DNA of 64,000 nt from the NCBI GenBank assembly GCA_017937125.1, contig JAGBEH010000001.1:856378-920377 (forward strand), in the 5' to 3' direction. A model generated the notes under the pieces. It searched no databases, had not been told where the DNA came from, and saw nothing but the letters and a program-made list of their open reading frames with translations. Position numbers and translations under genes: made by a program. Positions 1,600-40,483 of the stretch are shown one piece after another (the stretch's first letter is position 1; each line of letters opens with the position of its first letter). The DNA comes from Alistipes sp. (GTDB lineage Bacteria > Bacteroidota > Bacteroidia > Bacteroidales > Rikenellaceae).

Positions 1600-2678
1600 A
1601 GGGGGGGGGAAATGGAGTCCGAATATATATACACCCCTTCAGTATGATAAATTACGGGCTATATTATATTAAAGGCCTTTCGGATTTATTTCCTAATGCC
1701 GAGATGATATTCGATAACAAGCCATTCGGGTACATAATCAATAATCGGGAAAAATACCGAAAAGGGATAGGTGTCGTTCTGCAAACTAATTATGAGACTA
1801 TTAAAATCTATATCGATACGAATGATCTGAACACAGTCGATTTCGATTTTTACAATTGGTCGGATGTATATGCAAAAATCAATGTAAGTGCAGATGACGG
1901 GCATTTGAAAAAGCTATTGCCTATAGGCCCGAGTTTCGGCATAAATTACGGCTCCAAATTAAAACTAACATATTGGGGGCTGTGTAATTTTATGAGAATA
2001 AGGAATAACACGGAATATCGCGTATCTTTTCGCGAATTTATCGGGAATTATATTTACCCATTTATTCGCAGACGCAGTTTCGAAACATACAACTGTGACT
2101 GCGACGAGGACAGAGAATATATTTTTACACTATCGACATTATGGTACGATGCTAAAACCGATATGACGACAAATAGGTTTAGAGGAATATTCGCAAAAGA
2201 GTGTAAAAAACAATTTCCAAAATTTGAAGGCGGATTTCTATACCTGAATTCTCCGGTCGTTACCGCCCAATTTCCAGAATATACTAAATATCTAAAACTA
2301 TACAGCGACATTCTGGTATCACACAGGATGTCTATGCACGAATATCTCTCGAAAACGAGACGTTCGTCGTTTGTGTTCAATACGCCATCGGTATGCGGGT
2401 GTCTCGGATGGAAATTAGGAGAATATTTGGCGATGGGAAAGGCCATAATATCCACACCGTTAGGCAATATAATGCCTGGAGAGTTTACAGATGGGAAACA
2501 TTTCATCGCGGTAAATGATGAATCGGAGATAGCATCGGCGATTACATTTTTGCGCAATAATCCGCAAAAAATAGATGAACTCAAAAAAAATGCACGAACA
2601 TATTTCAATGAATATTTAATGCCTCGAAAAGTAATTGAACGCATTATCAATAAATACATTTCGTTAAAAGCCATCTGA
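1572..2678 (+). CDS. Glycosyltransferase, first in the polysaccharide operon (start crosses a G9 tract)
   Basis: 368 residues. The N-terminal '[20 protein letters not shown]' and C-terminal '[22 protein letters not shown]' segments are like GT-B glycosyltransferases of capsule loci; donor and acceptor are unknown. The start is problematic. The recognisable protein begins near residue 17 ('VRIYIHP'), yet the only in-frame ATG upstream of it is at 1572, inside upxY, and translation from there must cross the G9 tract at 1601-1609. G8 or G10 would lead to a stop within about 10-20 codons. The next in-frame ATG (1644) would remove the conserved beginning. An in-frame TTG exists at 1596. Base composition is AT-richer than in neighbouring rmlA. 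Function is inferred from C-terminal similarity and operon context. Confidence 0.7.
1601..1609 (+). repeat. G9 homopolymer tract 1
   Basis: Nine consecutive G followed by AAATGG, one base after the upxY stop codon and inside the overlapping start of the first glycosyltransferase. At nine G the reading frame from ATG 1572 is open. It is one of five identical-length tracts in this window. Confidence 0.95.
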
Positions 2679-2679
2679 T

Positions 2680-3573
2680 ATGAAAGGAATAGTCCTCGCG
2701 GGAGGCAGCGGCACACGACTGTATCCCATAACAAAAGGCGTAAGCAAACAGTTGCTTCCCATTTACGACAAGCCGATGATATACTACCCCATATCGACTT
2801 TGATGTTGGCGGGCATTCGCGAAATACTGATCATCTCCACTCCCGATGACCTGCCATCGTTCAAGCGTCTGTTGGGAGACGGAAGCGACTGCGGCGTAAA
2901 ATTCGAGTATGCCGAGCAGCCGTCGCCCGACGGTTTGGCTCAGGCATTCATCATCGGCGAACGCTTTATCGGGAACGATGCGGTTTGTTTGGTTCTCGGC
3001 GACAATATTTTTCACGGTGCGGGATTGGGCAAATTGCTCCGCGAAGCGGTCGCATCGGTCGAAAAAGACGGCAAAGCGACCGTGTTCGGATACAGGGTGG
3101 ACGATCCGCAGCGTTACGGAGTCGCGGAATTCGACGGCGAGGGCAACTGCCTCTCGATAGAAGAGAAACCCGAAAATCCCAAATCGAATTATGCGGTCGT
3201 CGGTCTCTATTTCTATCCCAATGACGTAGTGGAAATAGCCAAACGGATAAAGCCGTCCGCCCGCGGCGAGCTCGAAATAACATCCGTAAATCAGGAATAT
3301 CTCGCACAACAGCGGCTTATGGTCCGAAAATTCGAACGCGGATTCGCGTGGCTCGACACCGGTACCCACGATTCTTTGGCCGAAGCGTCCATATTCGTGG
3401 AAGTCATCGAAAAACGCCAAGGGCTGAAAATCGCCTGTCTCGAAGGCATAGCTTTCGACAAGGGGTGGATTACGTCCGACCGATTGAGACGGGCGGCAAT
3501 GCCGATGGCTAAAAACCAATACGGCAAATACCTGCTGAAACTTATAGACGAAAAAGAGAAGAGCGCATTATGA
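2680..3573 (+). CDS. rmlA: Glucose-1-phosphate thymidylyltransferase (RmlA)
   Basis: 297 residues, the usual length for RmlA/RfbA. It makes dTDP-glucose from glucose-1-phosphate and dTTP, the first step of dTDP-L-rhamnose synthesis. The nucleotidyltransferase signature 'GGSGTRLYP' is at residues 8-16, followed by '[15 protein letters not shown]'. '[10 protein letters not shown]' (about 105-114) and '[19 protein letters not shown]' (about 160-180) are conserved in the family. The stop overlaps the rmlC start by four bases (ATGA), indicating translational coupling. It begins two bases after the preceding glycosyltransferase. All four rml genes are in this operon but split into rmlA-rmlC, rmlD and rmlB. 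Confidence 0.97.
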
Positions 3574-4142
3574 AGGTAATTGCAACTGAAATAGAAGGCG
3601 TCGTAATTATCGAGCCGACCGTCTTCGGCGACGGGCGCGGATATTTCTTCGAGAGCTACTCGCAGCGCGAGTTCGACGCGAAAGTACGCCCCGTAAGATT
3701 CGTGCAGGACAACGAGTCCGAATCGCGCTACGGAGTATTGCGCGGGCTGCATTTTCAGAAAGGTGCGAATGCCCAGTCCAAGCTCGTACGAGTAGTCAAA
3801 GGCCGTGTTTTGGATGTCGCGGCCGACATCCGCAAGGGCTCGCCGACATTCGGGAAATACATTTCGGTCGAACTCTCGGCGGAAAACAAGCGGCAGCTTT
3901 TCGTTCCGCGCGGTTTCGCGCACGGATTCGCGGTATTGAGCGAAGAGGCGGTATTCCAATACAAATGCGACAATCCCTATGCACCCGAAACCGAAGGAGC
4001 AATCATATGGAACGACCCGACTGTCGCCGTAGACTGGCATCTTCCCGAAACCGACATAATACTTTCGGAAAAAGACAAACACCACCCCACGCTCGAACAG
4101 GCGGAAGAATTATTCGATTACCATACGGACTATTATGCTTGA
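3570..4142 (+). CDS. rmlC: dTDP-4-dehydrorhamnose 3,5-epimerase (RmlC)
   Basis: 190 residues, a full-length cupin of the RmlC family. It epimerises dTDP-4-keto-6-deoxyglucose at C3 and C5. The sequence shows 'GVLRGLHFQ' with the catalytic His near residue 62, '[13 protein letters not shown]' (about 111-123) and the following aromatic '[12 protein letters not shown]'. It starts within rmlA (ATGA overlap) and ends 21 bases before the flippase gene. With rmlA, rmlD and rmlB in the same operon, the dTDP-L-rhamnose pathway is complete. Confidence 0.97.
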
Positions 4143-4163
4143 CAAGCCTGCGGGCAAAAAGCT

Positions 4164-5645
4164 ATGTCACAACAGTTCTCGATTAAAAAAAACTATATTT
4201 TCAATCTGTTCAATACCGCATCGTCGATATTGTTCCCGCTGTTGGCATTCCCGTATGCGGCGCGCATTATGGGAGCGGAGTCTATCGGACGTATAAATTT
4301 TCTCTCCTCTATAATAGGTTACATTTCCATTTTGTCCTGTTTGGGCATCCCGATGTATGCCATAAGAGAAATTGCAAAGGTACGCGATAATGAACGCGAG
4401 CGCAATCGGGCTGCTAAAGAGATATTGATACTGCACACCCTGCTCACATTGATCGGTTACGGCATCGTCGGAATAATCGCCGTCGCTGTCCCGAAAATAC
4501 ACGACGACATCTCTCTGTTTCTGCTGTTGAGCATATCGATATTTTTCAATGCCATAGGATGCGAATGGTTCTATCAGGGAATAGAAGATTTCAAGTACAT
4601 CACTATACGCGGATTCATCGTAAAAACGATAGCGTTGATATTGCTTTTCGTATTGGTGAAAACGCCGAATGACATATATTGGTATGCGGGATATTCGGTT
4701 ATTGGCTCGGTCGGCAACAATATATTCAACTTCGTCAGATTGCATACTTATATCAAGTCTCCGCAAATAGGATTTGGAGATATGCGGCCGTTCAGACATT
4801 TCGTACCGGTATTGCATATTTTTATTCTCAACCTGATCGTAAGTCTTTACATCAATCTTAATACGATAATGCTCGGATTTATGCAGAATGACGAGAGTGT
4901 CGGACTATTTACCGGAGCCACGAAGATAGCGTCCATAGCATTGAGTTTCGTAGGCGCACTCGGCACCGTTATGCTTCCGCATCTGTCCAATCTGTTGAGT
5001 TCCGGGAACAAAGACAGATTCGATGAGTTGGCACAAAACGCATTTTCATTCACTTGCGCGTTTGCCATTCCGATGTCGGTCGGATTGATTATCTGCGCGG
5101 AATATATCATTCCCGTATTTTGCGGGCAAACGTATATGGCAGCCATACCGACTCTGCGCATTTTGGCTCCGGTCATATTGCTGGTCGGCCTGTCGAACGT
5201 GATAGGGATACAAATACTCTACCCGCAAGGGCGCGAAAACACCGTCATTCTTTGCACCTCTATAGGCGCTGCGGTCAATATAACATTGAATTTGCTGCTT
5301 ATCCCCCGCTATTCATACAACGGCGCCGCAATATCGACGATCATAACCGAACTGATGATTACATTGTGTATGATGATAATCGGGAGGCGCTATCTGCCGA
5401 TACAGTGGTTCAGAAAAGAGTATTCGACATACTTGCTCGGCAGCGCTTTGATGGTGGCAGGTATCATTCCCGCTATCCGAGCGGATTTATCCCCATACAT
5501 CGCACTGGCAATCATTGTTCCGGTAGGTGTAATCATATACGCCGGATGTCTCGCACTTGCTAAAGATCCGATATTTTATCGAATAATATCAACCATACGA
5601 CGTACCCGCAATGACAAAAGTAAAAATATTGGTATGCTGCCATAA
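4164..5645 (+). CDS. wzx: Wzx-type polysaccharide flippase (MATE/MOP superfamily)
   Basis: 493 residues with about 12-14 hydrophobic segments across the whole length. The N-terminus 'YIFNLFNTASSILFPLLAFPYAARIMGAESIGRINFLSS' is characteristic of Wzx/RfbX oligosaccharide flippases. It would move undecaprenyl-linked repeat units across the inner membrane for polymerisation by the Wzy-like protein encoded two genes downstream. The last 35 bases overlap the start of the DUF4422 reading frame. Function is confident from family and context; the substrate is inferred to contain rhamnose. Confidence 0.92.
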   Translation: MSQQFSIKKNYIFNLFNTASSILFPLLAFPYAARIMGAESIGRINFLSSIIGYISILSCLGIPMYAIREIAKVRDNERERNRAAKEILILHTLLTLIGYGIVGIIAVAVPKIHDDISLFLLLSISIFFNAIGCEWFYQGIEDFKYITIRGFIVKTIALILLFVLVKTPNDIYWYAGYSVIGSVGNNIFNFVRLHTYIKSPQIGFGDMRPFRHFVPVLHIFILNLIVSLYINLNTIMLGFMQNDESVGLFTGATKIASIALSFVGALGTVMLPHLSNLLSSGNKDRFDELAQNAFSFTCAFAIPMSVGLIICAEYIIPVFCGQTYMAAIPTLRILAPVILLVGLSNVIGIQILYPQGRENTVILCTSIGAAVNITLNLLLIPRYSYNGAAISTIITELMITLCMMIIGRRYLPIQWFRKEYSTYLLGSALMVAGIIPAIRADLSPYIALAIIVPVGVIIYAGCLALAKDPIFYRIISTIRRTRNDKSKNIGMLP

Positions 5646-6460
5646 AAACGACATAATGGCCACCGAAAAGCCGTATTTCCCGATCCACGCAGGCAAAGCA
5701 CTGTCGGACATTGAATTGAGGGGGGGGGAAATTTAGCGGCAGACGATACCGGCGATAATATAAGCGTAAAAACGGCAGTTACTGCGAACTCACGGGAATG
5801 TATTGGGCGTGGAAGAACCTGAAGGATACGGATATAATCGGACTGTGCCACTATCGCCGATATTTCGATTTTCACGGATTGTGCCGAAAATGCGTTCCTT
5901 TCGACGAATTCCCGACGTCGGATTTTGCGAATATCGACATATCCGTTCCCGACAAAATAATCGGATCGTTGCATTCGGGACAGGCGATAATAGCTGAACC
6001 ATTTTACTACAAATACAATTTGGCGACCATATACAGTATCTGTCATATATCCGAAGATCTGCGCACTATGCAAGAGGTGATAAGGGAAACTCAACCCGAG
6101 AAATTCATCCGTGCATTCGACGTGGTGATGTATCATAATAATGCCATATCGAATTACAATATGTTTATTATGACGTGGGGCGATTTCGACAAATATTGCC
6201 GATGGCTCTTTCCGCTGCTGGCAGAAATAGAGAACCGCACCGACATATCGAACTACAACCCCACCCAACGGCGTATTTTCGGATATATGGCAGAAAGATT
6301 ATTTAACGTATATCTGTATGCGGAGAAATTCAGCAAGATATACAAGCCCGTTATCAAAATAACCGAAAAGCCGAAAAATCTCTCTCGACATATATTCATC
6401 AGGAATCGATTGAGAGGGCATATCATAACGGCACTCGCCCGTTCGCATAGCTGGATATGA
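5611..6460 (+). pseudogene. DUF4422 glycosyltransferase, out of frame at a G9 tract and an A5 run
   Basis: The DUF4422 family (capsular glycosyltransferases) is recognisable in three consecutive reading frames. 5611-5718 reads 'VKILVCCHKNDIMATEKPYF', then 'HAGKALSDIEL'. A second frame after the G9 tract reads 'ADDTGDNIS' (about 5739-5765). A third frame from about 5771 to the stop at 6460 reads 'NGSYCELTGMYWAWKN' and 'IIGLCHYRRYFDF'. One extra G in the tract at 5720-5728 and one extra A in the run at 5768-5772 would give a continuous 283-residue protein of normal family length. As written, translation ends at TAG 5734-5736. It may be a phase-OFF gene with a second lesion, a decayed gene, or a sequence with two homopolymer miscalls. 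The start overlaps wzx by 35 bases. Confidence 0.85.
5720..5728 (+). repeat. G9 homopolymer tract 2
   Basis: Nine G followed by AAATTT, inside the 5' part of the DUF4422 gene. G10 would join the first frame to the middle frame carrying the DTGDNIS motif; at G9 translation meets a stop two codons after the tract. Confidence 0.95.
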
Positions 6461-6490
6461 TGGACAGATACACATGCTTCCGTTTTACAA

Positions 6491-7705
6491 ATGAATAATA
6501 CGACGAACCATACCCTGACCGTTGCAATACTGCTGTTGTTTTATGCAGCCGTTGAAATACTGTCGGTAAAATCGTTCTATGTACTGTTCCCGATATTCTT
6601 ATATCTTGTTTTACGAAACGGCACATCACCAATCGTAAAAAAATCGGTATTGTTTTTCGTAATACCATCCATACTGGCATTTGCAATAGGCTTGTTCAGA
6701 TTCGAACCTTATGACGTATTCAAAGATCTGACTTATTTCTTCATCCCGATATCGGGTTTAGCCTTCGGCAATGTTTTCGCGAAAAAGTACGGGGCGCCAA
6801 CCGTCTTGAATTCGCTGGAAACCGCCGGAAAAATTATCTGTCTGATTTTCTTATCCGTCGTATTCATCAAATTCGGCCCCGAAATAATTTACGAAGCTCG
6901 TGACATAAGAGATACCGAGGAGGGAGGATTGGGAATAGATACGGGATTTTTCCCCGTAGTAACAGCCGGCATTATATTGTACAGATTCCTGTTTTTCCGC
7001 TATGAATATCATATGCGCGACATTGTATGGTTGTTCGTCTGCATTTTGGCAATCATCGCATCCGGATCTCGAACTTATTTCATTTCATTCATAATTGTCA
7101 CATTATGCATCATCATATCATCATTCAGGCGACACTTCGTCCGATTTATGATCATTACGCCTCTCCTGATGCTTGCCGTTGCGGGAATAATGTCCACCAA
7201 TGAAGCATTCGTCGATAGTCTTAAGGAATCTACTGCCGAAATCAGCATCGAGAACACCGAAGATCTGAACGAGAATGAGAATTACCGAGGTTATGAGGCA
7301 AAAATGGCATTGCTGTTCGTATCAGAATCGGCACTCGAATATCAAATTGCAGGTAACGGGGCCGGTGTAGCAGTGGATATGGGTAATTATGCCCCAGTTC
7401 GGCGATTTGTCCCGATAACGCATAACGGCTACATATATATACTATTGAAGTTCGGACTCGCAGGGATGGCCGTCATACTGGCTTTCGGAATATACATATT
7501 GCAATACATCGTCAAATGGCATCCGTGCAAATTGCGGGACAAGCAGTTGAAAACGCTTTCCATAGGATGTATCCTTACTCTATTCGCGGCAAATTACGTA
7601 ATATGCGGCATATTCAACGTTCTGTCATACCCGTTGATGATAATAATCGGCTGTACGTTGTCATATATATATCAATATAAAAAACGATGCGCCAAGTCTC
7701 GATAA
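6491..7705 (+). CDS. wzy: Wzy-like O-antigen/capsule polymerase
   Basis: 404 residues, almost entirely hydrophobic segments (about 10-11) with one larger hydrophilic loop at roughly residues 235-300. That topology and the position between flippase and glycosyltransferases fit a Wzy polymerase, which links repeat units in the periplasm. These proteins share little sequence, so the call rests on topology, the 'NGAGVAVDMGNYAPVRRFVPITHNGYIYILLKFGLAGM' region that resembles O-antigen ligase/polymerase family proteins, and context. The 3' end overlaps the next gene by 19 bases. Confidence 0.75.
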   Translation: MNNTTNHTLTVAILLLFYAAVEILSVKSFYVLFPIFLYLVLRNGTSPIVKKSVLFFVIPSILAFAIGLFRFEPYDVFKDLTYFFIPISGLAFGNVFAKKYGAPTVLNSLETAGKIICLIFLSVVFIKFGPEIIYEARDIRDTEEGGLGIDTGFFPVVTAGIILYRFLFFRYEYHMRDIVWLFVCILAIIASGSRTYFISFIIVTLCIIISSFRRHFVRFMIITPLLMLAVAGIMSTNEAFVDSLKESTAEISIENTEDLNENENYRGYEAKMALLFVSESALEYQIAGNGAGVAVDMGNYAPVRRFVPITHNGYIYILLKFGLAGMAVILAFGIYILQYIVKWHPCKLRDKQLKTLSIGCILTLFAANYVICGIFNVLSYPLMIIIGCTLSYIYQYKKRCAKSR

Positions 7706-8559
7706 TCATAGTCAGTTACAATACCAGACTTTTACTGGCCGATTGCATCGAGTCGATTATGGAACATACCGTCGATATCGATTTCGAAATAATCGTCGTA
7801 GATAATAATTCTGCCGACGGATCGAAAGAGTATGTCAGGGGAATATATCCGAACGTGATTTGGATCGACAGCGGAAACAATATAGGCTTCGGCAGAGCCA
7901 ACAATCTCGGTGCGCAATATGCGCAGGGTGAATATCTGTTATTTCTCAACTCGGATACTCTGTTGAAAAATAATGCCTTGCAATATTTTATCAAATATAT
8001 GCATGTCCTCGGATCCGATAAAGTCGGGATATTGGGAAGCTGGTTGTATGACAAGGTGGGGCATATAAATTTATCATACGGCGATTTTCCTACCCCATCA
8101 TCAGAAATGAAATATATATTTGGAAAAATCACGAATAGAAAAGCATCGGACGATACGACCGTCATACGTACTGTCGATTGGGTGTCGGGTGCCGATATGT
8201 TCATAAAACGCAGTCTGTTCGAAGATATGGGCGGATTCGACCCCAACATATTTATGTATTACGAAGAAACGGACCTTCAATACCGGCTGTCGGAATCCGG
8301 ATACGGCAGATATATAATTCCGGGACCCGAAATCATCCATCTCGAAGGCGGCAGTTCCGACGGCAAAAAGCTGACATATCGTAAGTTTTTGATATCGCAG
8401 CACAGCTATAACTACTATATTCGCAAACACTTTCAAGGAATAAGATACGTTGCATACAGATTATTCCTTTGCTTATACAGACTGAGTATTTTCATAACTA
8501 CAGATTGGAGCATGCAAGAAAAACTAAAGGCATACGGAACGGTATTGTCAGGTAAATAA
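7687..8559 (+). CDS. Family 2 glycosyltransferase (rhamnosyltransferase-like)
   Basis: 290 residues. The N-terminal 'VSIIIVSYNTRLLLADCIESI' and 'EIIVVDNNSADGSKEYV' are the nucleotide-binding start of GT2 (GT-A fold) enzymes. 'YLLFLNSDTLL' (about residues 80-90) holds the DxD-like metal-binding motif, and 'DWVSGADMFIKRSLFEDMGGFDPNIFMYYEETDLQYRL' is typical of the WbbL/rhamnosyltransferase subgroup. Given the complete rml pathway in the operon, transfer of L-rhamnose is plausible but unproven. It overlaps the polymerase by 19 bases and the next gene by one base (TAATG). Confidence 0.9.
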   Translation: MRQVSIIIVSYNTRLLLADCIESIMEHTVDIDFEIIVVDNNSADGSKEYVRGIYPNVIWIDSGNNIGFGRANNLGAQYAQGEYLLFLNSDTLLKNNALQYFIKYMHVLGSDKVGILGSWLYDKVGHINLSYGDFPTPSSEMKYIFGKITNRKASDDTTVIRTVDWVSGADMFIKRSLFEDMGGFDPNIFMYYEETDLQYRLSESGYGRYIIPGPEIIHLEGGSSDGKKLTYRKFLISQHSYNYYIRKHFQGIRYVAYRLFLCLYRLSIFITTDWSMQEKLKAYGTVLSGK

Positions 8560-9842
8560 TGGAAAAAAGAAAGAACATTCTGGTGTTGGCATATATGGTA
8601 TCGCCGTATCGCGGATCTGAATATTCCGTTGCGTGGAACTATATCATAAATATGTCCGAATACAATAACCTGACGGTATTGTACGGCACATCCGGCAACC
8701 ACCTCGGAGACAATACGGATTTGGAAGAATACCTGCGCATCAATTCCGTGCCCAATGTCGATTTCATATTCGTCAAGCCCGACAAAACGGCAATGACTCT
8801 CAACTGGCTCAATACGCACGATATTCTTCGATATACGTTCTATCTAGCATATAATGCCTGGCATAAACAAGTATACCGTATCGCAAAACGAATAGTCGAT
8901 ACGCAGAATATCGACCTGATACATTATCTCGGGCCTATCGGATACCGCGAGCCGGGTTATCTGTGGAAACTCGACAAGCCGTATATGTGGGGGCCCATAG
9001 CAGGGACATGCAACTATCCGTACGTTCTGCGTAAATGCCTGTCGATGAAATCATTCATCAAATACCAGACAAGAAGCATCATAAACGATTTCCAACTGAA
9101 GCACTCGAAACGGCTCAAACGCGCACTATCTGCCTGCGACGTCCTGCTGACAGCGACGACCGAAGCACAAGATAAATTTATGCGCATCCATAACAGGTCG
9201 AGCGTATATTTGCCCGAGAACGGGATCGTCGCCGCAAACTCATCAGACTCGATTGCCGATAAATTCGGGGGGGGGATTATAGAACTTGTATTCATCGGAC
9301 GCATAGACGGGCTCAAAAATCTCGGACTGTTATTGGCTGCCCTTACGAAAATCGACGACATAGGGAAACTGCACCTCAACATAGTAGGCGACGGAACGGA
9401 ACGTGCGAAATTGGAAGCATATGCACGAATGCACGGATTAAGCGAACGACTGACTTGGCACGGACAGCAAAAACGAGAAAAGGTATTCAAAATCCTCGAC
9501 AAATCGCATTTGCACGTAATAACAAGTTTACAGGAGGGCAATGCAACGGTAGTTTTCGAAGCGATGGCGCACGGAGTTCCCACCCTCACTCTCGATCATT
9601 GCGGAATGCACGACACGATCTGCGACGACTGCGGCTTCAAAATCCCGATCGTATCTTATGAGCAAGTAGTTGCCGACATAACAGATACGCTGCAACGATG
9701 CATAGACAATCCCGACATATTGAAAACGAAAGCAGAAGAGACGGTGAAATGTGCCGAGAATTATTTATGGGACAAACGTAAACCGGTATTTCTCGAATGC
9801 TACGACGAGGCGATAAGAAAATTCGAAGAGCGGCACAAATGA
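8559..9842 (+). CDS. Family 4 glycosyltransferase carrying an in-frame G9 tract
   Basis: 427 residues, GT-B fold. The N-terminal half has 'VLAYMVSPYRGSEYSVAWNYI'. The C-terminal half has the usual group 1 core: 'LVFIGRIDGLKNLGLLLAAL' (about 245-265), 'LNIVGDGTERAKLEAYA' and 'TSLQEGNATVVFEAMAHGVPTLTLD' with the conserved E-rich loop. The G9 tract at 9267-9275 encodes Gly-Gly-Gly (about residues 237-239) exactly at the linker between the two domains. At nine G the gene is open. G8 would create TAG two codons later, removing the catalytic C-terminal domain. It overlaps its neighbours by one base upstream and four bases downstream (ATGA). Confidence 0.9.
   Translation: MEKRKNILVLAYMVSPYRGSEYSVAWNYIINMSEYNNLTVLYGTSGNHLGDNTDLEEYLRINSVPNVDFIFVKPDKTAMTLNWLNTHDILRYTFYLAYNAWHKQVYRIAKRIVDTQNIDLIHYLGPIGYREPGYLWKLDKPYMWGPIAGTCNYPYVLRKCLSMKSFIKYQTRSIINDFQLKHSKRLKRALSACDVLLTATTEAQDKFMRIHNRSSVYLPENGIVAANSSDSIADKFGGGIIELVFIGRIDGLKNLGLLLAALTKIDDIGKLHLNIVGDGTERAKLEAYARMHGLSERLTWHGQQKREKVFKILDKSHLHVITSLQEGNATVVFEAMAHGVPTLTLDHCGMHDTICDDCGFKIPIVSYEQVVADITDTLQRCIDNPDILKTKAEETVKCAENYLWDKRKPVFLECYDEAIRKFEERHK
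9267..9275 (+). repeat. G9 homopolymer tract 3
   Basis: Nine G followed by ATTATAG, in the interdomain linker of the family 4 glycosyltransferase at 8559-9842. The frame is open with nine G; one G fewer brings TAG into frame almost immediately. Confidence 0.95.
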
Positions 9843-13088: not shown

Positions 13089-13119
13089 GCTATAATTGTC
13101 TAAAAAATCATCAATAGCT

Positions 13120-26896: not shown

Positions 26897-26905
26897 ATAC
26901 AATTA

Positions 26906-28390: not shown

Positions 28391-28499
28391 ATAATATCCG
28401 TTTTTCCCGCCCGACAGTCCAAAATCGATGCCAATGCCGCAATGTATTTGTACGTTTTTTGCACGGGTTGTTTACGAACCGTAAAAAGAAGCAATGATT

Positions 28500-28679: not shown

Positions 28680-28683
28680 AAGC

Positions 28684-28712
28684 AAAAACCACCGTTCAGT
28701 CCGGTGGTTTTT
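28684..28712 (+). terminator. Intrinsic terminator
   Basis: Arms AAAAACCACCG and CGGTGGTTTTT with a 7-base loop, followed by a T-rich tail, five bases after the stop of the small gene. Confidence 0.85.
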
Positions 28713-28717
28713 CGCTA

Positions 28718-28749
28718 TTTGCAGATACGGATTTTTTTCGTTAAATTTG
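28718..28749 (+). promoter_or_regulatory. Predicted promoter of the GH127-type gene
   Basis: TTTG at 28718-28721 and TAAATTTG at 28742-28749 are separated by 20 nt, the Bacteroidetes spacing. It would give a ~70-nt leader before the start at 28825. Confidence 0.5.
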
Positions 28750-28824
28750 AACCTCGGATATGTCGGTATCGATGATGATACACGTCTACCGTAATAAAAC
28801 TAAACCAAAACCTGATTCCGTTTT

Positions 28825-30843: not shown

Positions 30844-30861
30844 GGCAGATTACGGAAATGC

Positions 30862-30902
30862 AAAAAAGGCTGTCTGCTGCGAGCCGACAGCCTTTTTTTT
30901 GC
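30862..30902. terminator. Bidirectional intrinsic terminator
   Basis: Arms AGGCTGTC and GACAGCCT with A and T runs at each side. It lies between the convergent GH127-type gene and the YhiM-like gene. Confidence 0.85.
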
Positions 30903-30949
30903 GATCCTGACAGTTCAGGAATATGCGATCGCCCGATTGCGGAAACGGG

Positions 30950-31993: not shown

Positions 31994-32082
31994 AGTAGAT
32001 GATTTTCGGCTGTCATATACAAAATGCTTACCAATTCGGGCGACGTATTATGCTTATCGCATAATTCGCCATATTCGGCTCT

Positions 32083-32302
32083 GTCGAAGATACTCCGTCT
32101 CGGCATAATCGAGCCGACGCTTGCTTCCGCTCTCGACTTTTCGTATCTGTGACTTTGTCGAAGATACTCCCGTTCGGCAATGCTCAAATAAATTTGGCAT
32201 AGTCCTCTCTTATTCGTATCTTTGACTTTGTCGAAGATACTTCGTCTCGGCAAAATCAAGCTGACGCTTGTTTCTGCCCTCGACTTTTCGTATCTTTGCA
32301 GT
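32083..32302 (+). repeat. Three tandem ~73-bp units, each ending in a promoter-like box
   Basis: Units start with GTCGAAGATACT at 32083, 32157 and 32230 and end with TATCTGTG (32144), TATCTTTG (32217) and TATCTTTG (32291). Units 1 and 3 are near-identical; unit 2 has a different centre (containing CTCAAATAAATTTGGC). The last -7 box ends five bases before the HAD gene's ATG, so that transcript would be leaderless or nearly so. This fills the ~310 bases between the YhiM-like gene and the HAD gene. Confidence 0.8.
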
Positions 32303-32899
32303 ATGGAATTGCGTAATATTGTTTTCGACTTGGGCGGTGTGGTCTTCGCACGCGACCCTAAAAAATGCAGCGAAGATTTCATATCTTTTTTCTCGTTCAT
32401 CCTCGCACCCGAGATGCCGTCGTTCTGGCAGGAGTACGATCGCGGCACCCTGACGCTCGACGAAGTCAAAGCCGAGTTATGCGCCTATAAAGGTTGCGAC
32501 ATGGCCGTATGCGACGAATACGTGGCGACCGCCATAGCGATGCAGGAAGAGATATCGGCTACCAAAACGCTGATAGAGGAACTCAAGGCGGCAGGATACG
32601 ATCTGTACGTACTGTCGAATATGTCGCGGGAATTCATCAGTTTCCTGCGCAAATTCCCCGTCTATCGGAATTTCAGGGGCGACGTAATATCATGCGAAGT
32701 GCATGCGGTCAAGCCCGAACCCGAAATATACAAGATTCTGTTGTCGAAATTCGGCATCAAGCCGTCGGAAACACTGTTTATCGACGACCGTCGGGCGAAT
32801 ACCGATACGGCAGCGTCTCTCGGCATCTCGACGTTCCTCTTCGACCATCGCAACCCCGAGAAGAGTTGCGATGATCTGAGGAAATTGCTGCTCGGTTAG
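32303..32899 (+). CDS. HAD-superfamily hydrolase (YihX-like)
   Basis: 198 residues from ATG 32303. A longer frame from 32222 is rejected because it runs through the promoter repeats. 'RNIVFDLGGVVFARD' is HAD motif I in the variant common to YihX/alpha-glucose-1-phosphatase-like enzymes. 'YVLSNMS' is motif II, and 'KPEPEIYKILLSKFGIKPSETLFIDDRRANTDTAASLGI' holds motifs III and IV. The substrate is unknown. The 3' end overlaps the convergent TonB-dependent receptor gene by 4 bases. Confidence 0.9.
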   Translation: MELRNIVFDLGGVVFARDPKKCSEDFISFFSFILAPEMPSFWQEYDRGTLTLDEVKAELCAYKGCDMAVCDEYVATAIAMQEEISATKTLIEELKAAGYDLYVLSNMSREFISFLRKFPVYRNFRGDVISCEVHAVKPEPEIYKILLSKFGIKPSETLFIDDRRANTDTAASLGISTFLFDHRNPEKSCDDLRKLLLG

Positions 32900-35800: not shown

Positions 35801-36048
35801 ATATACGATATTTCTACCGTATACGGTCCGCCCGTGCGCATTCCCTGAATTGAAAAACGACCGTTTCGGTCGGTTGCGACACCGTATTCGCTGCCCGACG
35901 GCAGATGTCGGGCTACTACGGAAGCGCCTTGAAGTTTGTTTCCCGCAGCGTCTGCAACGACGCCGCCGAGCGAAGATGTCGTGACTTGCGCCGCCGCACC
36001 GAGGATGCCGACGGCAAGAATTACCGTAATTAAAAAAAGTCTCTTCAT
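32896..36048 (-). CDS. Oar-like TonB-dependent outer-membrane receptor under an FMN riboswitch
   Basis: 1050 residues. Signal peptide to about residue 20 ('LAVGILGAAAQ'), then a carboxypeptidase-regulatory-like (CarboxypepD_reg) domain (~25-105, 'GGVVADAAGNKLQGASVVARHLPSG'). The TonB plug follows (~110-240, 'NIYDITRLSPLAQSPKFGGVSFGGANNRYNSFLIDGLANND'), then a 22-strand-type barrel. The order matches Oar-like receptors rather than SusC. Oar proteins are usually linked to adhesion or unknown import. Here the 5' leader carries an FMN riboswitch and a terminator, so transcription should fall when FMN is plentiful. That strongly suggests the receptor imports riboflavin, FMN or FAD. No lipoprotein partner is adjacent. 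Confidence 0.9.
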   Translation of the reverse strand: MKRLFLITVILAVGILGAAAQVTTSSLGGVVADAAGNKLQGASVVARHLPSGSEYGVATDRNGRFSIQGMRTGGPYTVEISYIGYGTVEIRDVVLELGNMFEIAPVLKENNELDAVTVVSSAADRFNASKTGAASNYSAKTIADTPTVSRNIYDITRLSPLAQSPKFGGVSFGGANNRYNSFLIDGLANNDMYGLTSTGTNGGLTSANPVPLDALDEIQVVVAPFDVRQSGFTGGGINAVTKSGTNEFKGTAYVYYNNRDFYGTTAGKNVVGRTKLSEQSTQIYGATLGGAIVRDKLFFFLNGEFTLDNYPSSYYPGAGGAVSIAEAERIAARFKTLTGYDGGGYGQRNVDRTSGSLIARLDWNINGRNTLSVRYNFIDGRKDEYANTAMSFLFGGAGYTSVSRSHMIGAELNSRIGDNLHNELRIGYGNVTDGRETERLLPCVIIQGLGQSERATAYIGTDRYAGANSLDQHTVTVTDNLTWRTGNHAVTFGTHNEFYRSHVVYVANSLGTYTYNSLEDFENDRASVYTYNYTDETVTGSKTWGPTFNAVQFGLYVQDNWTPSMRFSLTYGLRADIPVIFGAPTVNERFNRSETAAKHGVRVGDVPRLQVLWSPRAGFRWYADSGRRTLIRGGAGLFTGRVPFVWIVNNYSNTGVEQKGITRRATTDEHGNIVVPAESFSVHPPTTDESTLNPSIQVLDKHFRYPQVFRANLAVEQTVGNGWHFMVEGLFGKTINNAVFENLTLSDDGQRIYAVDKASASAANTSIYYKADKSYSSIYYTTNTDRGYSYSVTASVVKSFRFGLDVAASYTFGHSYALCDATSSAQASNWGRTYAVNSDSPALSYSLFDSPHKLTAQVSYSRRYAKYFGSTLSLVYQMYSGARYSLCYGENVDLNGDGYSGNTLMYIPTKGELEKMSFADETSKEAWNDFIEKDAYLRSHRGRYSERNVFQTPMEHRLDLHFAQDFYFGAKTERKLQITLDIMNMGNMFDRDWGAYYSVSNSKLTPVRITALTDDGDGNKTPVYQFTGADYTRNDILSRWHMQLGVRVVF

Positions 36049-36052
36049 ACAG

Positions 36053-36091
36053 ATAAAAAAATTAAGCCTCGAACAATCTCCTCGGGCCTAA
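36053..36091 (-). terminator. Leader terminator of the FMN riboswitch (expression platform)
   Basis: On the minus strand AGGCC and GGCTT pair around an imperfect CGA/TCG stem and are followed by TAATTTTTTT, ending about five bases before the receptor's ATG. Its place between aptamer and start codon fits transcription attenuation. Confidence 0.65.
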
Positions 36092-36153
36092 TTCAGATCC
36101 GTACACGGTTTACACTCTGCGCAGCAATGCAAAACGCGACATCGGTCTTTATA

Positions 36154-36266
36154 TCTTCTTCCATCCGGACTATAACCGTCGGTATCGGAATTTCACCGAT
36201 TCAGTCCCTCAAAAGGGAGTCGTGGACTATGACCACCGGTAGGGAGTTTCACCCTGCCCTGAAGAT
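36154..36266 (-). promoter_or_regulatory. FMN riboswitch (RFN element)
   Basis: Read on the minus strand, the conserved RFN blocks occur in order: TCTTCAGGGCAGGGTGAAA, CTCCCTACCGGTGGT, ATAGTCCACGA, a variable CTCCC/GGGAG-type stem, TCGGTGAAATTCCGA, ACCGACGGTTATAGTCC and GGATGGAAGAAGA. The terminal stem TCTTC/GAAGA closes the aptamer. It lies ~105 nt upstream of the TonB-dependent receptor and is oriented towards it; the divergent glucanotransferase is on the other strand. Confidence 0.95.
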
Positions 36267-36317
36267 TATTTCGGCGCAAATATACGGAAAAATTCCCGAC
36301 GTTAGCGAAAAAAATGT

Positions 36318-36325
36318 TATTTTTG
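36318..36325 (+). promoter_or_regulatory. Predicted -7 promoter box of malQ
   Basis: TATTTTTG, 25 bases before ATG 36351. It argues against a start at the upstream TTG 36333, which would sit at the transcription start. Confidence 0.45.
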
Positions 36326-36350
36326 TTATCCATTGAATGAATACCTCTGT

Positions 36351-38582
36351 ATGAATATACGCAAAATCAGGGAGAAAGGAGCCGACGGCAGCCGAGTGTT
36401 CGGTTCTTCGGCATTTACCGACGTAATCTTTTCGCGCACGGGCACAGCAGGGATATCATCCTCTGCCGCAGAGGGCGACATAGAGATCCGCGTCTCGGCG
36501 GCAGGCATCTCCCCGACGCAAACCCTGTGCATCGTCGGCAGCTGCGACGCCCTCGGATGCTGGCAGCCGGAACATTCCGTCGAATTGGCGGATTCGGAGT
36601 TCCCGATATGGAGCGTTCGCCTGTCGTCCGAAAAACTCCCGTCACGCTTCGAATACAAATTCATAGTCAGGGACCGCCTTACGAAAGATTTCGTAGCGTG
36701 GGAAGAGGGGTGCAACCGCATATTCGAATACGCCCCGCCCTCCGACGGCGAAACCGCGGAAATCGAAGTGCGGGCATTCGACAATCCCGTAAAATGGCAC
36801 GGCGCGGGAGTGGCGATACCGGTATTTTCCCTGCGCTCGGAAGGCGATTTCGGCATCGGCGAATTCCGCGACCTGTGCCTGCTCGCCGACTGGGCTGCCG
36901 CCACGGGGCAGTGCATCATACAGATTCTGCCCGTAAACGACACCACGCACGACGGTTCGTGGCGCGACTCGTACCCCTACAGCGCAAATTCGGCTTTCGC
37001 CCTGCATCCGCAATACATATCGCTGAAAGACGTCGGCATATTGAAAGATCCCGCCGAACGGGAGCGGTTCGACCGCATCGGGCAGGAACTGAATATGACG
37101 GCGGATGTGGATTACGAACAAGTAAATCGTATGAAGCACGAATATCTGCACGCCGTCTACGACGAATGCGGAGAGGAAACGCTGCACACCGAAGATTACG
37201 ACGATTTCTTCACCCGCAACGCATCGTGGCTCGTACCTTATTCCGCATACAGCGTCCTGCGCGACCTGAACGGCACGTCCGACTTCTCCTCGTGGGGCGA
37301 GTATGCCGTGTACGACAGCGCAAAAATCGAGCGCTTCTCCGCCGAATATGAACGCGAAACGGGATATTACCGTTTCGTACAGTACCACCTGCACCGCCAG
37401 TTGCGCGCCGCACGCGATTACGTCCACTCCCGCGGAGTGATTCTGAAAGGGGATATTCCGATAGGCATCAGCCGTACGAGCGCCGATGCGTGGGTATTCC
37501 CCGAATTCCTGCATATGGATTCATCGGCAGGCGCACCGCCCGACGACTTCTCCGTAAAGGGACAAAACTGGGGATTCCCGACATACGACTGGCAACGTAT
37601 GGCACAGGACGGATATGCGTGGTGGCGTGCACGATTGGCAAAAATGAGCGACTATTTCGACGCTTACCGCATCGACCACATACTCGGTTTTTTCCGCATA
37701 TGGGAGATTCCCGACAACGCCGTCAGCGCGCTTGCGGGTCATTTCAATCCGGCAATGCCCTTTTCCGAAGCGGAAATCTCTTCATACGGATTCGAGTTCG
37801 ACCGTGCGCACCACACGGCACCTGTTTCGGAAAGCGAAAACGTACTTTTCATCGAGGACCCGCGAACTCCCGACAGATGGCATCCGCGCATCGCGGCGCA
37901 TTCGACCGAAATATACGGGCATCTTTCGGACAAGGACAAAAAGGCTTTCGACCGTCTGTACGACGACTTTTATTATCGTCGGCATAACGATTTCTGGCGC
38001 CGTTCGGCTATGGACAAGCTCGTACCGCTGATTTCGGCGACGAGGATGCTCGTATGCGGAGAGGATCTCGGGATGATTCCCGCCTGCGTCCCCGACGTTA
38101 TGCGCGAGCTGCAAATCTTGTCGCTCGAAATAGAACGTATGCCCAAGACATTCGGCACAGAGTTCGACGACACGGGGAAATACCCCTATCTGTCCGTCTG
38201 TTCGCCCTCTACCCACGATATGTCCAATATCCGACTGTGGTGGCAGGAGAATACGGAGCGCAGCAAACGATACCTTAACGATATTCTCGGAATCGGGGGC
38301 GACATAACGCAGGAATGCCCGCCCCGAATTTGCGAGATGATCATTCGCCGGCAACTCGATGCCGCATCGATACTCACCGTCATCCCGTTGCAGGACTGGC
38401 TTTCGACTGACGGCGAGCTCCGCCGCTCGCAGCCTTCGGAGGAGAGGATAAACGACCCCTCCGACCCGCACCGATACTGGCGATACCGTATGCATCTGAC
38501 ACTCGAGACATTATCGGCTTCCGACGGCTTCAATTCGCGGATCGGCGAGATGATATGCGCTTCGGGACGGAGAGCGCGATAG
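36351..38582 (+). CDS. malQ: 4-alpha-glucanotransferase (GH77) with one CBM20
   Basis: 743 residues from ATG 36351. An N-terminal starch-binding CBM20 (~residues 45-140: 'TLCIVGSCDALGCWQPEHSVEL', 'RFEYKFIVRD') is followed by the GH77 barrel. 'WRDSYPYSANSAFALHPQYISL' is a GH77 motif, 'YRIDHILGFFRIWEIP' holds the catalytic Asp nucleophile, 'CGEDLGMIP' the Glu acid/base and 'SPSTHDMSNIRLWW' the third acidic residue. The enzyme moves alpha-1,4-glucan segments in maltodextrin metabolism. Plant DPE2-like and many Bacteroides relatives have two CBM20s and are about 890 residues, so this one has a single CBM. No signal peptide; cytoplasmic. Confidence 0.94.
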   Translation: MNIRKIREKGADGSRVFGSSAFTDVIFSRTGTAGISSSAAEGDIEIRVSAAGISPTQTLCIVGSCDALGCWQPEHSVELADSEFPIWSVRLSSEKLPSRFEYKFIVRDRLTKDFVAWEEGCNRIFEYAPPSDGETAEIEVRAFDNPVKWHGAGVAIPVFSLRSEGDFGIGEFRDLCLLADWAAATGQCIIQILPVNDTTHDGSWRDSYPYSANSAFALHPQYISLKDVGILKDPAERERFDRIGQELNMTADVDYEQVNRMKHEYLHAVYDECGEETLHTEDYDDFFTRNASWLVPYSAYSVLRDLNGTSDFSSWGEYAVYDSAKIERFSAEYERETGYYRFVQYHLHRQLRAARDYVHSRGVILKGDIPIGISRTSADAWVFPEFLHMDSSAGAPPDDFSVKGQNWGFPTYDWQRMAQDGYAWWRARLAKMSDYFDAYRIDHILGFFRIWEIPDNAVSALAGHFNPAMPFSEAEISSYGFEFDRAHHTAPVSESENVLFIEDPRTPDRWHPRIAAHSTEIYGHLSDKDKKAFDRLYDDFYYRRHNDFWRRSAMDKLVPLISATRMLVCGEDLGMIPACVPDVMRELQILSLEIERMPKTFGTEFDDTGKYPYLSVCSPSTHDMSNIRLWWQENTERSKRYLNDILGIGGDITQECPPRICEMIIRRQLDAASILTVIPLQDWLSTDGELRRSQPSEERINDPSDPHRYWRYRMHLTLETLSASDGFNSRIGEMICASGRRAR

Positions 38583-38622
38583 CGCCCGAAATAAATTTGT
38601 CGCAAAAAAACTCCGCATAATT

Positions 38623-38652
38623 TTGCTCGATCAAATTTTTCTATTACCTTTG
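38623..38652 (+). promoter_or_regulatory. Promoter of the tRNA gene
   Basis: TTTG at 38623-38626 and TACCTTTG at 38645-38652 (18-nt spacing) fit the Bacteroidetes consensus; the tRNA starts 19 bases later. Confidence 0.6.
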
Positions 38653-38671
38653 CACTCGCTTTAAGAGTTTC

Positions 38672-38745
38672 GGCGGGATAGCTCAGCTGGTCAGAGCGCA
38701 TGATTCATAATCATGAGGTCGAGAGTTCAAGTCTCTCTCCCGCTA
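38672..38745 (+). tRNA. tRNA-Met (CAT)
   Basis: 74-nt cloverleaf. Acceptor GGCGGGA pairs with TCCCGCT (first pair G-T); D arm GCTC...GAGC; anticodon stem CATGA/TCATG with loop TTCATAA, anticodon CAT at 38706-38708; T arm contains GTTCAAG. Discriminator A is followed by CCT, so the 3' CCA is not fully encoded. It is most like the elongator Met tRNA; tRNA-Ile(CAT) needing lysidine is the alternative. Confidence 0.93.
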
Positions 38746-38758
38746 CCTGAAAACGGAC

Positions 38759-38794
38759 AAATCGCGAATTGAAAAACAATTCGCGATTTTTTTT
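38759..38794 (+). terminator. Strong intrinsic terminator after the tRNA
   Basis: Arms AAATCGCGAATTG and CAATTCGCGATTT enclose a short A-rich loop, followed by a T8 run. Confidence 0.9.
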
Positions 38795-39004
38795 GCACCG
38801 CAGCCAAGTTCCGTTCATAAAATGCGGATACACGAATCCGCTTATTCCAAAACACCTATCTCTCATTCGTCCGTCTCCATAACACTGCCATCCCCGTAAT
38901 TTCATATATATTTACAACTGTCGGACGATTCGTAACAAAAAATATTTCCTCATACAATCGTTTGGCATACAATATGTTACAACCTACTTTCCGATAAAAA
39001 CCGA

Positions 39005-39013
39005 GGGGGGGGG
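39005..39013 (+). repeat. G9 homopolymer tract 4, upstream of the pilus promoter
   Basis: Nine G followed by AATTTTT in non-coding DNA, 41 bases before the predicted -7 box of the pilus operon. A change in length could alter the spacing of upstream regulatory sites. The rest of the ~370-base gap between the tRNA terminator and the pilus gene holds this tract, the promoter box, the palindrome and AT-rich DNA. Confidence 0.95.
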
Positions 39014-39054
39014 AATTTTTCGATTTGAAAATTTTTTAATTAAGTTTTTTGCTA

Positions 39055-39062
39055 TAACTTTG
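39055..39062 (+). promoter_or_regulatory. Predicted -7 promoter box of the pilus operon
   Basis: TAACTTTG fits the consensus. A TTTG at 39024-39027 is 27 nt upstream, too far for a normal -33 element, so the promoter may depend on an activator. The leader would be ~100 nt. Confidence 0.5.
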
Positions 39063-39069
39063 TGCTTCA

Positions 39070-39085
39070 CATTTCAGCTGAAATG
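39070..39085. promoter_or_regulatory. 16-bp perfect palindrome, possible operator
   Basis: CATTTCAGCTGAAATG starts about eight bases after the -7 box of the pilus promoter, at the expected transcription start. The position fits a repressor site or a small 5' hairpin. Confidence 0.5.
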
Positions 39086-39167
39086 ATATCTGCTCGAGCC
39101 TTACGGACGTTCCGCATATAGGAATATCGGGCAGACGAATTTCCGAACAAATTTATTTTATTACGGA

Positions 39168-40483
39168 ATGAAACGCATAATTTCCATCATATCGACGGCA
39201 GCAGCCGTTCTGACCTCAATACAAGCTATTGAGTGTCAGAACGTTGTGTCGCTCGGGGGGGGGATTTGCAGCCTGTCGGCAGTACTTCCGTAGCTGAAAG
39301 TTTCGCACTTTACTATCGTAACGACCGAATCGACATAGACGAGGAGTATCTCGATAATTCGGTTCGGATAAATCACATCAAAGACTATCTGGCGCGTTCT
39401 CCGCGCATAGACAGCATCACCGTCTACGCCTACGCATCGCCCGAAGGCATCTATGAACGCAATGTTCTGCTCGCGCGCAAGCGTGCCGAAGCGGCCAAAC
39501 GCTTCATTCTCGCGAATATTCCCGCCGATCGCGAATTCGACCCGTCTTCCATACGGCTACGTCCTATGGGCGAGAACTGGGACGGCCTGCGCAGGGAGAT
39601 CGAAGCCGAATATCATCGTACGGACCGTGCACGCGTGCTGGAAATCCTCGACGCTTCGGTCGGGAACGACACGAAAAAGTGGCGCCTGCGACAACTCGAC
39701 AACGGCAATACCTACAAATACATAATACGCAACCATATGCCCGAACTGCGTTTGGCCACTTGGATATGCGTCTGGACCCATCCCGTGGAAAAATGCGAGA
39801 TGACGCCGCCCGTCGAGATACGGTTCGACAAGCCTGCCGCCGTCAGACCCGTCGGTTCAACGCCTGAAATTGCGACCGCCGCACAGGCCGCTCTCCGCCC
39901 CGAATACGATAAACGGACCGTTCTCGCCCTGAAAACCAATATGCTCTACGATGCGGCCACGTGGCTCAATTTCGCCGTAGAGGTGCCTTTCGGCAGACGT
40001 TTCTCCCTGCTCTACGAGCATCATTGCCCGTGGTGGGTTACGGGGAGCAACAGATACTGCCTCGAATTCCTCTCCTTCGGAGGCGAATTCCGCTGGTGGG
40101 TGGCTCCGCGCCCGCGGGGCGAAAGCAGCAAACTCGTCAAGCGCGACGCGCTCGTCGGCCACTTCATCGGACTATACGGGATGGGCGGCAAGTTCGACCT
40201 TCAGGCCAAGCGGGCAGGATGCTATCAGGGCGAATTTATCAGCATAGGACTTACCTACGGTTACTCGATGCCGCTATGCAAACGGCTGAACATCGAGTTT
40301 TCCATCTCGGCAGGATATGCCGAGATACCCCACCGGCACTATATCCCTACCGCGAACTACGACCTGCTCATACGCGACCGCAGCAAGTCGGGTACGTGGC
40401 ACTACGTAGGTCCGACAAAGATCGAAATAGCCCTCGTCTGCCCTATTCTGGCCAAATATCGCAAGAAAGGAGGTAACCGATGA
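39168..40483 (+). pseudogene. DUF3575 outer-membrane protein heading the pilus operon, out of frame at a G9 tract
   Basis: ATG 39168 encodes a signal peptide ('MKRIISIISTAAAVLTSIQA') that runs into the G9 tract at 39255-39263 and stops at TAG 39291. The rest of the protein continues in another frame to 40483. Adding one G gives a continuous 438-residue protein reading 'VVSLGGGDLQPVGSTSVAESF'. An OmpA-like segment (~residues 75-120, 'IDSITVYAYASPEGIYERNVLLARKRAEAAKRFIL') precedes the C-terminal DUF3575 beta-barrel-like region ('RTVLALKTNMLYDAATWLNFAVEVPFGRRFSLLYEHH'). DUF3575 genes start type V pilus operons in Bacteroidales. As written the protein lacks a usable signal peptide, so it is probably a phase-OFF allele. 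It overlaps the next gene by 4 bases. Confidence 0.88.
39255..39263 (+). repeat. G9 homopolymer tract 5, just after the signal peptide
   Basis: Nine G followed by ATTTGC, at codons 30-32 of the DUF3575 gene. Ten G (or seven) would join signal peptide and mature protein. Confidence 0.95.

Follow-up and report, generated by a model that had tools for sequence, protein, structure and literature searches.

Five runs of nine guanines lie in a 64-kb window of an Alistipes sp. genome (the whole stretch of DNA analysed here), which raises the question of what these tracts are and whether they might act as switches of the genes they adjoin. A run scan places them at 1601-1609, 5720-5728, 9267-9275, 39005-39013 and 39255-39263, all on the + strand and each followed by an A, in agreement with the initial annotation. 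The latter had also reported no other G or C run above about six, and indeed we found no G6, G7 or G8 run in the 64-kb window, the longest C run being a single C6 at 22772. Its placement of the tracts on the coding strand of surface-structure operons likewise holds: all five G runs follow the strand of the adjoining operon, with the tract at 39005 being intergenic, 5' of a fimbrial operon. Markov models of orders 1, 2, 3 and 4, fitted with the tracts cut out, predict 0.076, 0.024, 0.009 and 0.002 G9 windows per 64 kb (here and below, G9 windows are overlapping 9-mers, so that one long run is counted several times) versus the five observed.

Three tracts belong to a polysaccharide operon headed by a UpxY-family NusG-like antiterminator (931-1599, + strand as for all features below; NCBIfam NF033644 antiterm_UpxY, 172 bits at a cut-off of 100; Pfam NusG). 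The inverted repeats listed for positions 1-1600 comprise four pairs, including an imperfect 19-nt pair before upxY (379-397/896-914). The first tract (1601-1609) is located 29 nt after the ATG of a GT-B like glycosyltransferase gene (1572-2678; Pfam Glyco_trans_1_2, E = 2e-6; no NCBIfam match), whose frame runs through the tract as sequenced. Downstream of a Wzx-like flippase (4164-5645; Pfam Polysacc_synt, E = 3e-30), the second tract (5720-5728) separates the N- and C-terminal pieces of a DUF4422 glycosyltransferase and is out of frame as assembled. The N-terminal piece (5611-5733) covers profile positions 1-29 with E = 5e-4, below the gathering score, the C-terminal piece (5798-6460) positions 57-218 with E = 1.5e-44, and the frames of the two differ. 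An indel error could be hidden in the same region, which includes five consecutive A's (5768-5772). The operon continues with a Wzy/O-antigen-ligase-like membrane protein (6491-7705; Pfam Wzy_C, E = 5e-11) and a GT4 glycosyltransferase (8559-9842; Pfam Glycos_transf_1, E = 2e-23), which carries the third tract (9267-9275) mid-gene, at nt 708 of 1284, and in frame as sequenced. The relatives of this gene are too distant for comparison; the two nearest, L201 (44% amino acid identity) and L202 (32%), to which the tract check among GT4 relatives extended, are without a G or C run of at least six. Of the three tract genes in this operon, the frame is intact in two and broken in one.

The remaining two tracts adjoin the fimbrial operon. 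It is headed by an OmpA/DUF3575 protein (39266-40483; Pfam DUF3575, E = 6e-30; OmpA, E = 1.5e-4, below the gathering score) and encodes a DUF5119 protein (40480-41520; Pfam, E = 5e-17), two fimbrillin-like (Mfa_like_1) proteins (41585-42637 and 42750-44141; Pfam, E = 3e-29 and 7e-17) and a fimbrial tip adhesin FimD-like protein (46211-49357; NCBIfam NF052322, 47 bits, below the curated cut-off of 170). The tract at 39005-39013 lies in the promoter region, 41 nt before a -7-like box, TAACTTTG (39055-39062). It is not part of a -33/-7 spacer: nearby TTTG motifs are found 90, 27 and 3 nt from the -7-like box, and none at 16-22 nt. The tract at 39255-39263 directly follows a start codon and signal-peptide-like stretch (39168-39254), which enters it in another frame than that of the gene body, so that the latter is out of frame as sequenced. 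Two tracts may thus act on the fimbrial operon, the first lying 5' of the -7 box and the second in the 5' end of the leading gene.

The OmpA/DUF3575 gene also carries such runs in other genomes. Eight of 26 sequences (the window and 25 relatives, the latter spanning 39-74% amino acid identity) have a run of G8-G10 at the equivalent position in the 5' end; these share 59-74% identity. Five of the eight are in frame, all with G9 (L133, L135, L136, L137 and L150), and three are out, namely G9 in the window, G8 in L131 and G10 in L138. A run of at least eight G's lies 5' of the gene in 10 of the 25 relatives. Between -600 and +30 of the 25 loci, the density of runs of at least eight G's was 49 times that of G or C runs of this length elsewhere, calculated per strand (17 in 14.8 kb, from 13 of the 25 loci, versus 7 in 149 kb with both strands counted).

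The five tracts are a sample of the 56 runs of G9-G11 found in the source genome, an incomplete draft assembly of 12 contigs and 90% completeness. Its 66 overlapping G9 windows merge into 47 G9, eight G10 and one G11. The run lengths are bimodal, as 9-11 G are common and 6-8 G almost absent. Within 416 kb, i.e., the window plus 352 kb of stretches chosen around tracts, G/C runs of lengths 4, 5, 6, 7 and 8 numbered 1326, 175, 10, 1 and 2, and those of lengths 9, 10 and 11 numbered 47, 8 and 1. Genome-wide, 178 of the 192 G7 windows fall inside runs of at least nine and there are five G8 runs, leaving at most four G7 runs. Of the 56 tracts, 53 are followed by A or T and three by C, versus 42% C after runs of G3-5. 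With five tracts against 0.002-0.08 expected, 56 genome-wide and a gap at 6-8, the excess over base composition is that of SSR contingency loci.

Where the tracts lie relative to genes separates them into classes. One class is located inside reading frames, often shortly after the start codon, a signal peptide or a lipobox. By our own reading, 28 of the 56 tracts are coding, 24 of them in frame and four at frame breaks, and the intergenic ones number 28, or 33 by gene model; inside genes, the tract is G-sense in 20 cases and C-sense in six. A second class sits between a -33 TTTG and a -7 TAnnTTTG box, with the G's contributing to a spacer that mostly measures 18-19 nt. Still others, including 39005, are positioned 5' of genes and outside -33/-7 spacers. 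A change in length would alter the frame at coding tracts and the promoter geometry at spacer tracts, which does not extend to every tract. In the source genome, 5 of 112 tract orientations fall into a -33/-7 spacer, versus 0.72% of mock intergenic 9-mers (p = 0.0014). The promoter-spacer pattern occurs in 94 of 180 genus genomes and the reversed pattern in one of 180, while order-wide the numbers are 7 and 6 of 393. Among the 150 matches listed, coming from 75 of the 94 matching genomes, the spacer measures 18 nt in 66, 19 nt in 50 and 21 nt in 13. This peak alone is weak evidence because any promoter has such spacing; the weight of the promoter class rests on the reversed control and the contrast between genus and order. 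Again among the matches listed, the element TTTGGAAA..-Gn-TAnnTTTG appears with n = 8 (14 times), 9 (46), 10 (2) and 11 (1). The promoter-spacer class, missed by the initial annotation, is the clearest genus-specific signal in our data.

To describe the target genes, Pfam was run on 47 of 48, with a 29-codon ORF at L036 left out and four short doubtful ORFs swapped for the next gene downstream; no gene was assigned to three of the 56 tracts (L031, L041 and L053). Genome-wide, tracts lie in or before genes for TonB receptors, ECF sigma factors, AraC and LacI regulators, M16 peptidases and sulfatases, and further targets are pyruvate:ferredoxin oxidoreductase, a DisA/CdaA-type cyclase gene, a PspC gene and a tRNA-Met gene. 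Confinement to polysaccharide and pilus loci, as initially proposed, thus applies within the window only, and we rejected the idea that the tracts mark these genes alone. The opposite pattern of an even scatter over housekeeping genes was not seen either: the set is mixed and biased towards exported products, in line with the surface-gene enrichment that had been envisaged. Exported products are encoded by 28 of 43 tract genes versus 90 of the 245 remaining genes in these stretches (odds ratio 3.2, p = 7e-4), as judged by a crude signal-peptide proxy and a simple gene caller of our own. In four ECF sigma genes, drawn from three species, an in-frame G9 sits at positions that agree to within one codon. 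At the M16 peptidase promoter, 2 of 30 loci (our own included) have the tract and one has an interrupted run; one relative with the same 5' UTR lacks the tract, and the other 26 show no G/C run of at least six in the 110 nt before the gene. Deep conservation of this promoter tract was not seen in these 30 loci.

Searching relatives as well as the genome itself, a step the initial annotation had suggested, returned G9 in all 180 Alistipes genomes examined, next to the 56 runs described above. Per Mb, 36 of the 179 genus relatives contain about seven times as many G9 as 118 representatives of other Bacteroidales families, drawn from 393 order genomes. The source genome is near the top of the genus, with 3 of the 36 having more G9 per Mb. 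Alistipes sp. An66, whose record carries no MAG label, has 90 G9 windows; in the single-contig 3.4-Mb genome G187 they number 136. Loss of MutS1 was rejected as the cause, since 57 of 61 genus genomes score over the cut-off, the source genome included; the remaining four have fragments only (G009) or weak matches only (G035, G065 and G079).

We consider it likely that the five tracts belong to a set of poly-G contingency loci that extends across the genome and the genus, and whose reversible switching we infer from sequence. Most likely, these are slipped-strand loci of two kinds, one at the 5' end of reading frames and the other in the -33/-7 promoter spacer. The polymerase would slip on the tract and gain or lose G's. 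Inside a gene, a slip would shift the downstream frame in or out and switch the product on or off, and in a spacer it would shift the -33 and -7 boxes relative to each other and tune transcription. The length might settle at nine through a tendency of shorter tracts to grow and of longer ones to shrink, as described for C. jejuni. The contingency interpretation of the initial annotation is thus retained on account of tract numbers far beyond chance, the many tracts at frame- or spacer-altering sites and the exported-product bias, but without its restriction to polysaccharide and pilus. Several findings count against it: MutS1 is present and intact in the source genome, the length is narrow (47 of 56 exactly nine), G022 has a single G10 only among the places listed, and by our own reading 24 of the 28 coding tracts keep the frame, more than free slippage would give. 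Moreover, several tracts adjoin genes without a surface role, some of them metabolic, a 65% identical ECF relative and the two nearest GT4 relatives are without the tract, the M16 promoter tract is shared by few of the loci compared, 12 of the 25 OmpA/DUF3575 relatives have no run of at least eight G's before the gene, and 86 of 180 genus genomes, An66 included, lack a promoter-spacer match. Tract lengths were compared between species, with one genome per species.

Some of these observations would also fit passive products, i.e., G runs that slippage drives to an attractor near nine and that persist at sites where the harm is small, such as intergenic DNA or glycine-tolerant loops, unselected as switches. 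The genus-wide abundance of G9, the roughly half of tracts that are intergenic, the predominance of in-frame coding tracts, the tracts beside genes without a surface role and the gain and loss at the M16 promoter all agree with this. We nevertheless regard it as unlikely given the 49-fold local density at one fimbrial gene whose relatives share 39-74% identity, the matching tract position in four ECF sigma genes, the export bias and a promoter-spacer placement that is far above the reversed control and genus-confined as far as sampled. A fixed G9 element, meaning a structural or protein-binding motif kept at one length and with no role in variation, appears very improbable. The prevalence of exactly nine G's and the preference for A or T at the next base speak for it, yet among the matches listed a single promoter element comes with 8-11 G, the OmpA/DUF3575 gene has 8, 9 or 10, and coding tracts on either strand are unexplained by a single strand-specific motif. 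A sequencing or assembly artefact, for which the draft state of the source assembly and the A5 run in the DUF4422 region could be cited, is hardly credible and was rejected, as flanking frames and promoters are coherent, orthologous positions recur across independent assemblies, and G187 and An66 are rich in G9 windows.

Building on the contingency-locus reading, we tentatively propose that a mismatch-repair-bearing genus could run a large poly-G phasome at two levels, surface genes and -33/-7 spacers on the one hand and regulators on the other, as a second system beside DNA inversion; at the ECF sigma genes with their fixed tract place, one slip could switch a whole receptor regulon. Searches for inversions would miss homopolymer switches. 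Should the tracts slip, dozens of capsule, fimbria and receptor loci would vary simultaneously within Alistipes populations, and metagenome reads already in existence can be re-examined for such variation. Given the intact MutS1, one may ask how short G tracts could be kept unstable in the presence of mismatch repair.

Promoter-spacer or upstream homopolymer switches are known from Bordetella fim and Neisseria porA/opc, and are also reported for NadA and H. pylori SabA. In all of these, as in the Alistipes spacer class, repeat length sets the distance between promoter or regulatory elements. The Alistipes tract differs in lying between TTTG and TAnnTTTG and in recurring in 94 of 180 genus genomes, and the tract at 39005 is unlike these switches in being outside the spacer. 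TTTG and TAnnTTTG are boxes of the sigma-ABfr type (PMC7366714). Phase variation in gut Bacteroidales is described mainly as DNA inversion (PMC12632263 and PMC11868660), and our literature search found no report of a poly-G switch system in this order. The invertible promoters of Bacteroidales capsule and SusC/D loci resemble the Alistipes tracts in their targets, namely UpxY-headed polysaccharide operons and surface receptors (PMC12632263 and PMC11868660). In contrast, the Alistipes tracts need no inversion, and no inverted repeats of at least 14 nt were found at 38500-39300. Another close parallel is offered by the G/C contingency loci of Campylobacter, likewise multiple tracts of ~9-10 G per genome, in frames and intergenic, at glycan and surface genes. 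In C. jejuni, which is without functional mismatch repair, tracts reportedly stay mainly at G9 and G10 because G8 is biased towards gain and G11 and longer towards loss (PMC8355987). Alistipes belongs to another phylum and has intact MutS1, glycosyltransferases are a minority of its targets, and one of its tract classes sits in the spacer of the Bacteroidota -33/-7 promoter.

The initial annotation had claimed five G9 tracts in the window, and a run count located all of them, at 1601, 5720, 9267, 39005 and 39255, with an A after each; G6, G7 and G8 runs were absent from the 64 kb. A Markov expectation for this length is 0.002-0.08 G9 windows (overlapping 9-mers), compared to the 5 observed. 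The source genome, a 2.16 Mb draft of 12 contigs that is 90% complete, contains 66 overlapping G9 windows, which merge into 56 runs (47 G9, 8 G10 and 1 G11). Within the window and 352 kb of stretches chosen around tracts, G or C runs of length 6, 7 and 8 occurred 10, 1 and 2 times, respectively, versus 47 of length 9, a scarcity expected from a length attractor. For C. jejuni, a review passage describes tracts that tend to lengthen at G8 and to shorten from G11, which keeps them mainly at G9/G10 (PMC8355987). The base following the tract was A or T in 53 of the 56 runs and C in the other 3, whereas C follows 42% of G3-5 runs (Fisher p = 7e-10). The poly-G set is a real, strongly non-random feature.

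The polysaccharide operon of the window is headed by an UpxY antiterminator gene starting at 931. Tract 1601 lies in frame near the start of the glycosyltransferase gene next after upxY, and tract 9267 in frame within a GT4 gene, while tract 5720 is found between two DUF4422 glycosyltransferase pieces in different frames. Between these pieces, a third-frame stretch may resemble the family, through one motif only; a Pfam search of this middle stretch did not confirm it. An A5 run at 5768-5772 marks a possible second DUF4422 frame break nearby, separate from the G tract, which may be true, an assembly error or a misreading, depending on whether the middle stretch is real. Just before upxY, an imperfect 19-nt inverted repeat (379-397/896-914; 84% complementary, 498 nt between arms) is possibly an invertible promoter beside poly-G tracts, or else a chance occurrence.

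The fimbrial operon encodes, in order, an OmpA/DUF3575 protein, a DUF5119 protein, two Mfa_like_1 proteins, one protein without Pfam match and a FimD-like protein that scores under its cut-off. Tract 39005 is positioned 41 nt 5' of a -7-like box, and tract 39255 directly follows a signal-peptide-like stretch; the OmpA/DUF3575 gene body is out of frame as sequenced. Among relatives of this protein from 25 named records (39-74% identity), 13 of the 25 loci carried a run of at least eight G within -600 to +30 of the match, where the per-strand density of such runs was 49 times that elsewhere in the same loci. Counting the window, 8 of 26 sequences had a tract at the 5' coding spot behind the signal peptide: five G9 tracts that keep the frame, and one each of G8, G9 and G10 that are out of it. 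Thus, length and state vary while the site is kept. A SusC-like gene elsewhere in the genome (L066:944-4123) also has two tracts, one in an 18-nt promoter spacer and one at a frame break ahead of the signal peptide, a pairing much like that seen for the fimbrial operon.

Genome-wide, 24 of the 56 runs lay, by our own reading, inside frames that continue through them, including L038, a weak 96-codon ORF. Four runs lay at frame breaks (5720, 39255, the SusC-like gene and a sulfatase gene, L067), and the remaining 28 were intergenic, many 5' of genes. By the gene model alone, 33 of 56 runs were intergenic although coding DNA makes up 89% of the stretches (p = 6e-18). Of the 53 runs with an assignable gene, 40 have their G's on the sense strand. 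Targets comprise TonB/SusC receptors, LicD, glycosyltransferases, a capsule-type epimerase, fimbrillin-like and fn3 proteins, sulfatases, DUF6562 proteins, two ECF sigma factors and AraC and LacI regulators, as well as M16 peptidases, PspC, a diadenylate-cyclase-type gene and pyruvate:ferredoxin oxidoreductase; one tract precedes a tRNA-Met gene. Exported products were enriched (28/43 tract genes versus 90/245 others in the same stretches). By eye, tandem CTGCTCCGTTCCC-like units bounded by two C9 runs were seen between two genes at L065:4001-4141.

Five promoters of the genome carry the run between TTTG and TAnnTTTG boxes, with a spacer of 19 nt in four and 18 nt in one; the two boxes correspond to the consensus published for sigma-ABfr (PMC7366714). 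Such placement applied to 5 of 112 tract orientations versus 0.72% of mock intergenic 9-mers (p = 0.0014). Across the genus, the pattern occurred in 94 of 180 genomes, as against 1 of 180 for the same pattern read backwards; the other 86, Alistipes sp. An66 included, were without it. Order-wide, 7 of 393 genomes, our own counted, compare to 6 of 393 for the reversed control, placing the pattern at control level outside the genus, and it was absent from the four sister-genus genomes searched. The spacer was 18 or 19 nt in 116 of the 150 matches listed. Among these, the element TTTGGAAA..-Gn-TAnnTTTG precedes different genes with n of 8 (14), 9 (46), 10 (2) or 11 (1), so its spacer differs mainly via the tract. 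At an M16 peptidase promoter, the tract was gained or lost among close species.

Four ECF sigma genes from three species share an in-frame G9 whose position agrees to within one codon: two paralogs of the source genome (L039:3558-4112 and L055:11321-11896; 37% identical) and genes of two others (L254 in G031, L260 in G025). The other 31 of 34 ECF loci compared, including a 65% identical relative, lacked it there, with locus L232 aligned only from residue 64. This recurrence hints that ECF sigma factors could be switchable.

The genus is probably Alistipes: two of its members, G022 and G092, correspond by contig and position to Alistipes sp. An66 (NZ_NFHT01000017.1) and Alistipes sp. RGIG9059. 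All 180 genus genomes examined held at least one G9. Medians of G9 windows per Mb were 8.5 for 36 genus genomes and 1.16 for a set of 118 family representatives (Mann-Whitney p = 5e-14); our genome has 31, exceeded by 3 of the 36. Rich lineages occur elsewhere (118 windows in G538, of a sister genus, and 155 in G542), so poly-G richness is not unique to the genus and may have arisen several times in Bacteroidales. G538, G542, G421, G394 and G353, at 86-155 windows, totals that could also come from a few long runs, yielded no promoter-spacer match.

Placement, lengths, frames, spacers and site recurrence were observed directly, and the tracts most likely represent poly-G contingency loci in two modes; we infer slippage, its reversibility and an effect on expression. 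The genome carries an intact MutS1, so any slippage would occur despite it, and the short, narrow tract lengths might reflect its activity.

The matches listed in open-licence full text included no account of homopolymer phase variation, whether in Alistipes or as a system of Bacteroidales; subscription papers may say more. The words 'slipped' and 'homopolymer' are absent from the main text, as consulted, of a 2025 Bacteroidales review (PMC12632263). In the section seen of a B. fragilis paper, slippage at a run of 4 C is merely raised as a possibility (PMC3090145), and in the portion consulted of a 2025 phase-variation review, the mechanism for Bacteroides, where named, is inversion (PMC11868660).
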